Assembly: GCA_016179945.1 (NCBI GenBank)
Contig: JACPCE010000011.1
Coordinates: forward strand, 1 to 39,591
DNA length: 39,591 bases
Reading direction: 5' to 3'
Source of the DNA: Candidatus Woesearchaeota archaeon
GTDB taxonomy: Archaea; Nanobdellota; Nanobdellia; SCGC-AAA011-G17; GW2011-AR18
The first letter of the stretch is position 1; every line of letters starts with the position of its first letter. The translations under genes and the position numbers were made by a program. Under the pieces are notes generated by a model that worked only from the letters and a program-made list of their open reading frames with translations, was not told where the DNA came from and searched no databases. Below are positions 14,341 to 27,490 of the stretch, piece after piece.

Positions 14341-17300
14341 ATGGGACTATTTAGTGGTTTTAAAAAAGAGGCATCTAAAGAAAATCAAACAGCACAGAAT
14401 AATAAAACCCCAATACCACAAGCAGCACCAACTTCTATAAAAAAGGAAACACAACCATTGTTTAAAATAGAGCAGCCAACAATACCAAACTTACCAGAAG
14501 CAAAAGACCCTAAAACAATTGATATTAGATATCCATTAATCCCGCCTTACACATTTGCTAGAATAAGGTGGGATCAAAAAGAAACTGAATTAGTATATGA
14601 AATAGAAGAGCCAAATATAACAGACAAAGAAAAACAAATACTTGACACACTTGAAGAAGGAATAAAAGAATTAATTAATCTAAGTTTCATAAGTGTAAAA
14701 GATAAAGAAACAGTTCTTCTCTATCTTGAAAAAAATATTAGGGTTTTATTAACAGAGTTATCCATAGAATTAACAACTGATTCTTATTTGAAAATAATGT
14801 ATTATATCTACAGGGATTTTGTAGGGCTAAATGAACTAGAACCCTTAATGAATGATTATTTTATAGAAGATATTGAATGCAACGGTGTAAATAGTCCCAT
14901 TTATGTTGTACACAGAAAATATAGAAATATTAGGACAAATTTGATTTACAAAGATATACACAAATTGGCTTCATTTGTTGAAAAGCTTGCACAAAAGTGC
15001 GGAAGATATGTTAGTTATGCAGAACCATTGCTTGATGGATCACTTCCAGATGGAAGTATAGATTATGATGAACCAGTAATTTATAGAGAAAATGGAATTG
15101 TTAAATTAAAAAAAATAGGTGATGTTATAGATAATTATTACAAAGATAATGAAAGCAATAAGTCAGTAAATATTAATAATATAGAAGTTGCAGCATTTGA
15201 TAAAGATTACAAAATAAGCTGGAGAAAAGCTAATTACGCATATAGACATAAAATTAATGGGGATTTATATCAATTAGATTTAGAATTTGGAAAAAAAATA
15301 AAACTGACTGGGTGTCATAGCATTTTTACATTGCGAAATACAGGAGTCATATCTGAAAGAACAGAAAATTTAAATGTAGGAGATTATGTTATTATACCCT
15401 CAATTATACCAGAAAATAATATTATGAAAGAAATTAATTTATGTAAAGAATTAATAAATTCTATTTACAAAGATAAACTAATAATAAGAGATGTGCCTAA
15501 TTATATTTATATTAAAAATAAAAAAGAACTTTATGATTACTACAATGGACATTATAAACATGCAAATCAGGCCTATTATGAACACAAAAATAAAAAAATA
15601 ATTCCGCTATGTTTATATTATATCTTAGATGAAAAAGAATTAAGAAACTGTTTTATAGGAACAACTTCATCACATAAAGTTCCTACCTTTTTAGAAATAA
15701 ATAAAGAATTGATGTGGTTCTTAGGTTTGTATATTTCTGAAGGCTGGCTCTATGATCGCGGTTCGCATGGTGTTTACTTTAGCTTAAATAAAAATGAGTT
15801 AAATTTAATTGAAGAAATAAGCAGATGCGCAAAAAATTCTTTTAATTTAGGTATATATGTAGAACCAGAGAAGGACAATGGTGTAAAAGTTAAAGTTGAT
15901 GGTTTAATATTATGGATAATTATGAAAGATGTTTTAAGAGTTAGCAAAGGAGCAAAAACAAAAGTAGTTCCTGAATTAATATTTAACGTTTCAAAAGAAT
16001 TGCAAAAGGCATTTATCAAATCATGGCATGCAGGAGATTATAGTACAACAACTAGTAAGTTCTTAGCAAATGATATTTCTTATTTGGCTTTATTTAATCA
16101 AGATATTACCTCTTTCTATAAATCAAAACCAAAAGTAACTAAAATTAAAGGTAGAGAAATAATTAATAATGGTGCTTATTATTCTAATTTTTATACTAGA
16201 GATGTAGAAAATCCTTATCCGTCAATGATTCCCATAGAATTATTTAATCCTCTAAATAAAACCCATTTGAGATTTAGAAATAAAAGAATAAATAGAAATA
16301 GGCTTATTAAAATTTTAAATGAAATTAGGTATAAAAGGTTTGAAAATTTAAATTTAATAAATAGAAAATCCTTTTTAGAATGGAACAAAAGAGGTTTATT
16401 AGATAGTAATTGTAATTTGACGAAAGAAGGTAAAAAATTAACAGAAGAATTAAACATTGTTAAAAAATTAATAAATTCTGATTTTTGCTTTGCCAAAGTA
16501 AAAAAAATATCAAGAGTTAAATCAACATCAGAATATGTTTATGATTTCAGTGTAGAAAATGATGAGAATTTCGTTGCAGGTTTTGGTGGTGTTTGCTGTC
16601 ATAATTCAAGGATAAACGCAACGTATACCACAGACGTTAGTTCCAAAGGGCCAACTTTTACAGCAAGAAAATTTACAAAAGAACCATGGAGTCCAATTCA
16701 ATTAATGATAAAAGGAACTTGTACTGCAGAGATTTATGCTTATCTTTGGATGGCTTTAGAATATGAAAATAGTTTGATGGTAATTGGAGGAACTGGAACA
16801 GGCAAAACTTCCTATATTAATTCAATAGCATTCTTTATTCCTCCGCAAGCAAGAGTAGTAAGCATCGAAGATACTCGTGAGCTTCAGCTTGAGCATGAAA
16901 ATTGGTTGCCAAGTGTTGCAAGAGCTGGTGTAGGTTTGACTAATCTAGTTGGTCAAAGATACGGTGAAGTTAGTTTGTTTGATTTGCTTAGGGCTAGTTT
17001 TAGGCAAAGACCGGATTATATAATTGTAGGAGAAGTTAGAGGAAAAGAAGCATTCGTTTTGTTTCAAGCATTCGCAAGTGGACATCCCGGAATGGCAACA
17101 ATGCACGCTGAAGATGTCAATACTTTAATTAAAAGATTGGAAACAGAACCAATTAATCTATCAGGATCTTTAATCGAAACACTTTCAGCAGTTGTAGTTA
17201 TGACACAGTCAAAAATTAAAGGAAAAGAAGTAAGAAAAGTAAGCAGTATTGATGAAATTGTTGAGGTAAAGGAAGGAATTGGTGGCGAAGTTACTAACAA

Positions 17301-17544
17301 TGTATTCAGATGGGACCCTAAAACAGATACATTTGTTTTTAATTCTAATAGTAAATTATTTGAAAAAATAGCAATACACTATGGATTTACTAAAGAACAG
17401 GTTCTAAATGAATTTAAGATAAGAGCAAAATTATTGAGAGAATTATATAAAAGAGGAATAATTGGTTTTAAGCAGGTGCAGGCAGTTGTACATGAATATT
17501 ATAAATCTCCAGAAATAATTTTAAAGAGGTATAATATAGTATGA
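14341..17544 (+). CDS. Type II/IV secretion ATPase (archaeal pilus GspE/FlaI-like), intein-containing precursor
   Basis: Walker A GGTGTGKTS, VVSIEDTRELQLEHENWLPS, RPDYIIVGEVRGKEA, GHPGMATMHAEDV; split by intein in LPDG/SRINATY. Confidence 0.95.
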   Translation: MGLFSGFKKEASKENQTAQNNKTPIPQAAPTSIKKETQPLFKIEQPTIPNLPEAKDPKTIDIRYPLIPPYTFARIRWDQKETELVYEIEEPNITDKEKQILDTLEEGIKELINLSFISVKDKETVLLYLEKNIRVLLTELSIELTTDSYLKIMYYIYRDFVGLNELEPLMNDYFIEDIECNGVNSPIYVVHRKYRNIRTNLIYKDIHKLASFVEKLAQKCGRYVSYAEPLLDGSLPDGSIDYDEPVIYRENGIVKLKKIGDVIDNYYKDNESNKSVNINNIEVAAFDKDYKISWRKANYAYRHKINGDLYQLDLEFGKKIKLTGCHSIFTLRNTGVISERTENLNVGDYVIIPSIIPENNIMKEINLCKELINSIYKDKLIIRDVPNYIYIKNKKELYDYYNGHYKHANQAYYEHKNKKIIPLCLYYILDEKELRNCFIGTTSSHKVPTFLEINKELMWFLGLYISEGWLYDRGSHGVYFSLNKNELNLIEEISRCAKNSFNLGIYVEPEKDNGVKVKVDGLILWIIMKDVLRVSKGAKTKVVPELIFNVSKELQKAFIKSWHAGDYSTTTSKFLANDISYLALFNQDITSFYKSKPKVTKIKGREIINNGAYYSNFYTRDVENPYPSMIPIELFNPLNKTHLRFRNKRINRNRLIKILNEIRYKRFENLNLINRKSFLEWNKRGLLDSNCNLTKEGKKLTEELNIVKKLINSDFCFAKVKKISRVKSTSEYVYDFSVENDENFVAGFGGVCCHNSRINATYTTDVSSKGPTFTARKFTKEPWSPIQLMIKGTCTAEIYAYLWMALEYENSLMVIGGTGTGKTSYINSIAFFIPPQARVVSIEDTRELQLEHENWLPSVARAGVGLTNLVGQRYGEVSLFDLLRASFRQRPDYIIVGEVRGKEAFVLFQAFASGHPGMATMHAEDVNTLIKRLETEPINLSGSLIETLSAVVVMTQSKIKGKEVRKVSSIDEIVEVKEGIGGEVTNNVFRWDPKTDTFVFNSNSKLFEKIAIHYGFTKEQVLNEFKIRAKLLRELYKRGIIGFKQVQAVVHEYYKSPEIILKRYNIV
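15055..16605 (+). mobile_element. Intein (517 aa) with LAGLIDADG-type homing endonuclease, Ser1 / C-terminal HN / +1 Ser
   Basis: Extein LLDGSLPDG|...|SRINATYTTDVSSKGPTF is interrupted by SIDYDEPVIYRENGIVKLKKIGD...TGCHSIFTL...FLGLYISEGWL...DFSVENDENFVAGFGGVCCHN. Confidence 0.9.
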
Positions 17545-24341: not shown

Positions 24342-25859
24342 ATGAAAGAAATGAAAAGCAGCACAAGGCATTTTTTTATTAGCCTATATGCTATCCTGGT
24401 AAAAAATTTCAAGACAGTATTTAGATCTAAGAGCTCAGCATTTACAATAATTTTAGGGCCTTTATTAGTTATGTCTTTAATAATTCTGGCATTTAATAAC
24501 TCCTCATTTTATGACATTCATATAGGTACTTATTCAGAATCTTATAGCAAGTTAAGCAATCAAGTATTAACTAGTTTGGAAAACAAAGGTTATGTTGTAA
24601 CTAGAGCTGATAATTTGACAGAATGTGTAGAAGGTGTTAAAAGCAGTGAGTTTAATGTTTGCCTTGTTTTCTCAAAAGATATGCAGGTCTCAAACAAAGC
24701 AAAAAATAACATAGATTTCTATGTTGATCCTGGAAGAATTAATATTGTCCACAATATAATGGCAAGTGTAAACAAAGAGATTCTTCAAACATCAACAAAT
24801 GTAAGTTTAGAGTTGACAAATATATTATTGAATAAATTGTCAAGCACAAGAGACGAATTAAATAATAGATTGGAAATACTTTCAACATTAAATTCAAATA
24901 ATGGTAGAATAAAGGAAAGTGCCAACAACCTAAGAAGCAAAGCAGGAGCAGTTGATCTTACTGTTTTATACGATGACTTTAAAATTAGTGATTTATCTAA
25001 AGAAATATCTAGGGTAAATTCATCATACAATATAAGCAGTGTAGATAACAAGGCAATTAATGATAAGATAATAGTAATAGATACACAAATAAATGCGACA
25101 ATATCAAAGTTATCATCTGCAAAAAGCAAGTTAAACGAAATTTCAGATGGAATATTATTCTTCCCAGATATGGCTGAAAATAATATCAAACAAGTTAACA
25201 GCTTGAAAGATTCAATAGACAAAATAATTGCCAGTATAAACAGTATAGAAGTAACTGATCCAGAACAAATAGTTAGTCCTATAAAGACAAATGTGCAGAC
25301 AGTTGAAAGCCAGGAAACACACATAGGGAAATTATTGCCTACATTCCTTGTTTTAATAATTATGTTTGTATGTATATTATTGTCATCAAGCTTGATACTT
25401 ACTGAGAGAACTTCAAGTGCTTATCTTAGAAATGCAATAACTTCAACGCCTAGTTCAGTATTTTTAATGGGTGCATATTTAACATCTCTGATAGTTATAA
25501 TATTTCACATTATATTAATATCATTTATATTAAACATAATTCTAGGCTATAACTTGATATTTTTATTGCCTGCAGTATTGCCTTTATTCCTTATTGTAAG
25601 CATGTTCATACTGCTTGGAATTATTATAGGTTATATTTCAAATTCCCAGGAAACTTCAAGTGTAATTTCTCTGGCAATAATAACAATAGTAATATTCTTG
25701 TCAAATACAATATTGCCTCTTCTAAAAAGAATTCTTATATTTGAATTTGGACTGGAAAAAGTTTTAGATCATATTTTGAGGTTATTATGGTATAATATTG
25801 CATTAATAATTATTGGTTATTTATGTTTGAAATTCTCTAGACCTGCTATAAAACGTTGA
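24342..25859 (+). CDS. ABC-2 type permease with large extracytoplasmic coiled domain
   Basis: N-terminal TM, long soluble region, 5-6 C-terminal TM; 1-nt gap from ATPase. Confidence 0.85.
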   Translation: MKEMKSSTRHFFISLYAILVKNFKTVFRSKSSAFTIILGPLLVMSLIILAFNNSSFYDIHIGTYSESYSKLSNQVLTSLENKGYVVTRADNLTECVEGVKSSEFNVCLVFSKDMQVSNKAKNNIDFYVDPGRINIVHNIMASVNKEILQTSTNVSLELTNILLNKLSSTRDELNNRLEILSTLNSNNGRIKESANNLRSKAGAVDLTVLYDDFKISDLSKEISRVNSSYNISSVDNKAINDKIIVIDTQINATISKLSSAKSKLNEISDGILFFPDMAENNIKQVNSLKDSIDKIIASINSIEVTDPEQIVSPIKTNVQTVESQETHIGKLLPTFLVLIIMFVCILLSSSLILTERTSSAYLRNAITSTPSSVFLMGAYLTSLIVIIFHIILISFILNIILGYNLIFLLPAVLPLFLIVSMFILLGIIIGYISNSQETSSVISLAIITIVIFLSNTILPLLKRILIFEFGLEKVLDHILRLLWYNIALIIIGYLCLKFSRPAIKR

Positions 25860-25979: not shown

Positions 25980-26771
25980 ATGATAGCAAATGAAGAATTA
26001 TTAAAGAAGTTAAGAAGCACATTCAACTTAAATATATATGAAGTTAAAGTATGGACTTCTTTGCTAAGCAAAGGCGCTGCTACAGCAGGCGAGCTTAGTG
26101 ATATGAGCAATGTTCCAAGAAGCAGAAGCTACGATGTTCTTGAAAGTTTGGAAAAGAAAGGATTTATTATAATGAAGTTAGGAAGGCCAATAAAATATTT
26201 GGCTGTACAGCCCTCTGAAATTATAAAAAGAGTAAAGAAGGGTTTGCAAGATAGGGCAGAATCACAGATAAAAGCAATAGAAGAGATACAAAAAACAGAT
26301 GTATTCCAGGAATTAACATTATTGTTTAGTCAGGGAATTACTCATGTTGATCCAAGCACAATTGCCGGAAGCTTTAAAGGCAGAAACAATATTTATGACC
26401 ATGTGCTTAATTTATTGGATAATGCTTCTAAAGAAGTTGTTATTGCAACAACACCTGAAGGCATAGCAAGAAAACTAGAGTACATGAAAACAACATTAAG
26501 AAAATTAAATAATAAAAAGATTAAAATAAGAATTGCTGCTCCATTAAAAACAGATAAAGCAAAGGAAGCTGCAAAAGAACTTTCAGACATTGCAGATGTA
26601 AAAGATATTGATGTTAATGCAAGATTTATAATTGTTGATGGAAAAGATCTAGTGTTTATGGTTTCCAATGATAAGGCAACACACGAAAGCATGGATGTTG
26701 GAATTTGGGTAAACACACCATTTTTCGCTGGTGCTTTAAGAACTATGTTTGATTCAGTTTGGAATAAGTAA
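25980..26771 (+). CDS. TrmB family transcriptional regulator
   Basis: LRSTFNLNIYEVKVWTSLLSKGAATAGELSDMSNVPRSRSYDVLESLEKKGFI. Confidence 0.92.
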   Translation: MIANEELLKKLRSTFNLNIYEVKVWTSLLSKGAATAGELSDMSNVPRSRSYDVLESLEKKGFIIMKLGRPIKYLAVQPSEIIKRVKKGLQDRAESQIKAIEEIQKTDVFQELTLLFSQGITHVDPSTIAGSFKGRNNIYDHVLNLLDNASKEVVIATTPEGIARKLEYMKTTLRKLNNKKIKIRIAAPLKTDKAKEAAKELSDIADVKDIDVNARFIIVDGKDLVFMVSNDKATHESMDVGIWVNTPFFAGALRTMFDSVWNK

Positions 26772-26773
26772 AT

Positions 26774-27490
26774 ATGAAAAGGGAAATAGAAGATAGAAAA
26801 AAATGGATTTTAGTTCCAGGAAAAAATTCTGAAGATTTATTATTTTACCAATATAGATTAAGCGTGGAAGATTGCACTCCTAGATATTTAGGAATGAGGT
26901 TGAAAAATACAGGCACTGGTTTATTAGATGCTAGACTGTATATAGGAAATATAAAATGGGAAGATGCAATAAGACTTAATCTATTGTCTGGTTATAGGAC
27001 TGCAAACATAAGACAGTTTATGGATTTTCGTCTTTTATTAGAACAGGGCGTAAGAGAAGGAAAAGAAGTATTTGATGGCAATGGAAGTAAAATTGATCAA
27101 AATAGGGTTCTTGGAATATATTCAGATTTGCAGGCACAACAAGAGCCATACAGAGGAGAATTTTTAGACGCTTATTTTGTATCAGGTAGAGAAGGCAGAT
27201 TATGTATTAATTATAGTTCTAGATTAGAGGAAGGTGTAGTTTTAGGAAAAAGTGAACTATTAGATGAATGTTTAATGGAAAGTGGGTTTGTTGATATTTC
27301 AAGTTTAAATAGACAAGGTCTACCAACGGAAAAAGCAATTAGTTCTAATGTTATTTATCATTATCCAAGAAATGATAGTATCACGGGGTTCGGAGCTGGC
27401 TCTGTCAGGGTGAGCTTGGTCTGCGGCGGGAATCCGCGGGACACTAATGCGGGTCTCGGGATACGTCCAGTTATAGTAAGAGAAAGATAA
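26774..27490 (+). CDS. Putative diversity-generating-retroelement target-like (C-type-lectin-like C-terminus) protein
   Basis: C-terminus ITGFGAGSVRVSLVCGGNPRDTNAGLGIRPVIVRE encoded by a sharply GC-rich segment. Confidence 0.5.
   Translation: MKREIEDRKKWILVPGKNSEDLLFYQYRLSVEDCTPRYLGMRLKNTGTGLLDARLYIGNIKWEDAIRLNLLSGYRTANIRQFMDFRLLLEQGVREGKEVFDGNGSKIDQNRVLGIYSDLQAQQEPYRGEFLDAYFVSGREGRLCINYSSRLEEGVVLGKSELLDECLMESGFVDISSLNRQGLPTEKAISSNVIYHYPRNDSITGFGAGSVRVSLVCGGNPRDTNAGLGIRPVIVRER
27380..27466 (+). repeat. Candidate DGR variable repeat (VR)
   Basis: 27383-27466 is about 64% GC (54/84 hand counted), A-poor, with many NNC/NNT codons interspersed with conserved F/L/C/P/LG codons. Confidence 0.45.

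Follow-up and report, generated by a model that had tools for sequence, protein, structure and literature searches.

A probable target of a diversity-generating retroelement, detached from its cassette, in a Woesearchaeota genome

Results

Target gene and its neighbourhood

The window, by which we mean the whole 39,591-base stretch of DNA analysed here, carries on its forward strand an ABC-2 type permease (24342-25859), a TrmB-type regulator (25980-26771) and, starting 2 bases after the latter ends, a gene of 238 codons (26774-27490). Over its last 36 or so codons this gene turns abruptly from AT-rich to GC-rich, with 31.4% GC in 26774-27379 and 64.7% in 27385-27469. The 84 nucleotides at 27384-27467, 55 of them G or C, are the richest stretch of that length in the window, the next best having 45. 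The sharp switch described in a first-pass annotation of this DNA is therefore real, at about 64% GC over 84 nt, although its counts need slight correction: we find 53 G+C of 84 at 27380-27463 where 54 had been claimed, and 13 adenines in 27380-27466 where 12 had been given for 84 nt.

The encoded protein matches no family in Pfam, NCBIfam or PHROGs and no sequence in the PDB, and no relatives of it were found on viral contigs. As regards the putative C-type-lectin-like fold of the C-terminus suggested in the first-pass annotation, two AlphaFold2 runs gave models of low confidence (pLDDT 30 and 33). The two upstream genes are kept in the genomes G003 and G004, the regulator at 81-82% identity and the permease at 55-57%, and a target of a diversity-generating retroelement (DGR) likewise stands beside them there; these targets are only about one third identical. 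About 0.7 kb separates the regulator from the target frame in G004, and in G003 the target frame at this locus is disrupted. The same permease and TrmB neighbours in both genomes indicate that the locus is old, with a neighbourhood conserved in the genus. Elsewhere in the window, an open reading frame of 1067 residues (14341-17544) reads as a secretion-type ATPase with an apparent, putative intein.

DGR machinery in the rest of the genome

In a DGR, a reverse transcriptase (RT) copies the RNA of a template repeat (TR), misreading adenines at random, and the resulting cDNA takes the place of the homologous 3' end of a target gene, its variable repeat (VR). As the first-pass annotation had stated, the window contains no recognisable RT or TR; both occur elsewhere in the same genome (G000; 782 kb in 27 contigs, 74% complete), where three other contigs, C17, C14 and C26, carry RT genes. 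The annotation had proposed looking for a DGR-type RT, and C17 encodes one: an intact enzyme of 354 residues with the motifs PLGNLTSQ and YVDD. A TR adjoins the RT gene, and past this TR lies a divergent target gene. The VR of that target differs from the C17 TR at 17 of 22 adenine sites and at none of 48 others. Homology between the C17 target and the window protein runs the length of the protein (37%), and both have the pattern 'IRQF.DF..LL' and a common C-terminal pattern.

The second DGR of this genome, on C14 (L007:2622-3675), comprises a TR, a neighbouring target that is a homologue of AvpA (PDB 5ioo, E=4.9e-55) and a frame-broken RT; its VR equals its TR except at adenines and for one AAC triplet fewer. 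The third RT, on C26 (L008:11833-13229), is retron-like and directly followed by a small protein with a HELCH metallopeptidase-like motif; the two possibly form a defence pair.

The C14 RT gene is also one of several that contain a poly-G tract. Within the order, such tracts, 9-12 nt long, lie in the DGR RT genes of several families, before GMPLGN or near residue 312 (L007:4150-4159 on C14; L048, L115, L116, L117, L165, L122 and L159). Tracts of at least 9 nt number seven in 61 kb of RT sequence and one in 513 kb elsewhere (p ~1e-6), the latter directly adjoining the end of an RT match. The reading frame is broken where five of the tracts stand just before GMPLGN, and is kept at others. This distribution suggests either phase-variable RTs, with the tract as a mutator switch, or assembly errors in a homopolymer whose site is conserved. 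We found no literature report of poly-G tracts in DGR RT genes.

Adenine signature of the variable repeat

Comparison with the C17 TR, together with GC content, places the putative VR of the window gene at 27380-27469 on the forward strand. It differs from that TR at 14 of 22 adenine sites and at 12 of 48 non-adenine sites (p=0.0024). For a broader reference we gathered the TRs found next to other RTs in the order, 15 of which belong to the C17 type, and scored as conserved any site where at least 14 of the 15 have a common non-A base, or A. Within the core of the VR (27385-27442, forward strand), all 20 conserved non-A sites are matched and 10 of the 15 conserved A sites are changed (p=1.6e-5); scored against this order-wide consensus, the substitutions of the core are limited to adenines. 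At the inner sites where the window VR departs from the C17 TR, each of its bases is also present in other TRs, whereas at four edge sites (27380, 27383, 27443 and 27445) its base occurs in no TR. Related TRs have AAT, AAC, GAT, AGG and AGA at the variable codons, and 20 of the 22 adenines of the C17 TR fall at codon positions 1 and 2, in line with the AAC/AAT template codons that had been expected. The core pattern and the cassette-linked homologue on C17 both bear out the first-pass identification of a DGR variable repeat.

An A-rich near-copy of the kind that the annotation had suggested seeking is present on another contig, as the C17 TR. This TR is homologous, but its 12 non-A mismatches out of 48 mean that it is not the exact donor; seven of the 12 lie at third codon positions, a share that fits drift as well as a sister TR. 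The G000 assembly contains neither a TR that fits the window VR better nor a second TR of the type, and a donor search in which every VR site could also be A recovered only the VR itself. We rejected the C14 TR, an AAC-rich template of an AvpA-type target. Since the inner mismatches carry bases found in other TRs, the donor was most likely a TR of the C17 type but of a different allele.

Sequence at the end of the repeat

VRs that fit their own TR with 0-1 non-A mismatches in 50 nt (exact-match VRs) number 19. All 19 have an IMH-like GG(G/A)GT, followed in 17 by a GCGC/CGCG element; on this comparison we take the two as the putative counterparts of the IMH and downstream hairpin at the VR end. 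Its position in the window copy (27455-27467, forward strand) reads CTCGGGATACGTC, degenerate relative to the exact-match VRs, and neither GG(G/A)GT nor GCGC/CGCG occurs in 27455-27490. Among VRs of G003 that mismatch their TR, the copies C5a and C9 are without both elements and C5b has both. The rule was seen before it was counted, so that it stands as a supported hypothesis and not as a blind test. The 'LGIRPV' end, which the first-pass annotation had likened to the C-termini of DGR targets, does not mark active targets: the exact-match VRs have GG(G/A)GT, and usually GCGC, at that place.

Templates and targets across the order

Of the 103 genomes of the order, 43 have DGR-type RTs related to that of C17 and 38 have the target family, one of them with as many as 18 matches. 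In G003, of the same genus, the TR on its contig C26 fits VRs on contigs C11, C24 and C26, all without a non-A mismatch in the best 50 nt; over 70 nt, the C24 VR has one. The single contig of G039 has VRs fitted by its own TR at about 184 kb (one mismatch) and 560 kb (none) from the RT, and G079 has one 43 kb away. These exact matches at a distance suggest that a single TR of this order can act in trans on several unlinked targets. Four G003 VRs (C9, C5a, C5b and C12) no longer fit that genome's own TR, and three G003 VRs point to a common TR that is absent from an assembly rated 100% complete.

At the end of G003 C5 (L037:17684-17819) and the start of C12 (L038:1-106), two different targets have an identical VR, A sites included, either because both were recently copied from one cDNA or because the assembly repeats the stretch. 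TRs of the C17 type also have an extra CTCG...CGAG stretch, in G000 and G003 some 17-21 nt long, which separates the mutable core from the tail (L006:4790-4900, reverse strand; L047:430-480; L049, upstream of the RT). It is missing from the matching VRs, as if skipped in copying, and an adenine beyond it differs among G003 VRs.

Discussion

We consider it highly probable (about 0.9) that 27380-27469 forms the VR of a DGR target gene and was written by machinery located elsewhere in the genome, because the gene is homologous to a cassette-linked target and its repeat has the adenine signature. The first-pass view of a target detached from its cassette was right, RT and TR being on another contig, C17. 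The VR would have arisen by the adenine-error copying and 3'-end replacement typical of DGRs, written in the past by a sister TR, of the C17 type but a different allele. Rewriting would then have ceased as the homing-site sequence decayed, the protein being kept as a fixed variant beside the ABC transporter and its TrmB neighbour.

An ordinary gene whose GC-rich tail stems from foreign DNA or codon bias is very improbable. The exact TR is indeed absent, and the compositional shift taken by itself would also be compatible with foreign DNA. Such a gene would leave unexplained the A-specific pattern of the window copy, its homologue in the same genome standing beside an RT and a TR with a perfect A-only pattern, and the exact TR/VR pairs found across the family. 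We reject foreign DNA as the only source of the shift, since replacing A by G, C or T in a template of 47% GC is enough to produce it.

As to present activity, we lean towards a copy that is now frozen: no better TR is assembled, and the decayed homing-site sequence, with GG(G/A)GT and GCGC both absent against 19/19 and 17/19 in exact-match VRs, suggests that it is probably no longer rewritten. Against this stand the mismatching C5b copy of G003, which has both elements, and, for the reading as a whole, the exact donor TR, not found in a genome 74% complete. A smaller but appreciable share of probability goes to an active target, whose VR is still being rewritten, with the C17 RT or a further RT, from a same-type TR that would lie in the unassembled quarter of the genome or belong to another strain. 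The inner mismatches with their bases from other TRs, the conserved non-A core sites, none of which is broken, and the still high GC of the VR agree with this, and the G003 template missing from an assembly rated complete indicates that TRs may be lost in assembly. The homing-like sequences lost here, the four edge bases present in no TR and the want of a second same-type TR in the G000 assembly speak against it. If the copy is frozen, this did not happen long ago, as the GC of the VR is still 63%.

Detached archaeal DGR targets are already known, and the present case belongs among them. Partial DGRs without an RT were described in Nanoarchaeota in 2015 as 'fossils' or as 'diversified remotely' (PMC4372165), the same two readings weighed here. 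Like those of DUSEL4, which comprise target, VR and cis elements, the window gene is a DPANN target with an adenine-directed VR and no adjoining RT; unlike them, it has a homologous TR and RT located elsewhere in its genome and is without the homing-like sequence, and sequence searches set its protein apart from the AvpA family. It resembles the AvpA-type variable proteins (PDB 5ioo, PMC5006420) as a DPANN DGR target with a C-terminal VR, and has no detectable sequence similarity to AvpA itself. In Thiohalocapsa PB-PSB1, trans-diversified and unmatched VRs coexist (PMC10907252), and here too some loci exactly match a remote TR and others match none; that system differs in being bacterial, with transposon-degraded loci and diversification seen in reads.

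Surveys that look next to RTs overlook detached targets, as the 2021 global survey states of itself in placing remote targets beyond its detection (PMC8144416). Trans rewriting in archaea, a matter not settled in 2015 (PMC4372165), gains support from TR/VR pairs that match exactly between contigs and, on one contig, over 560 kb. The window copy further suggests a criterion, the loss of the homing-like sequence, by which a retired target may be told from a live one. As a tentative generalisation, on which we would put less weight than on any active rewriting here, DGR networks might be dispersed over the genomes of the order, a single template serving many unlinked, operon-embedded targets in trans; some RTs would be switched on and off by poly-G slippage, and targets would leave by losing their homing sequence, with the last variant kept, as in the window.
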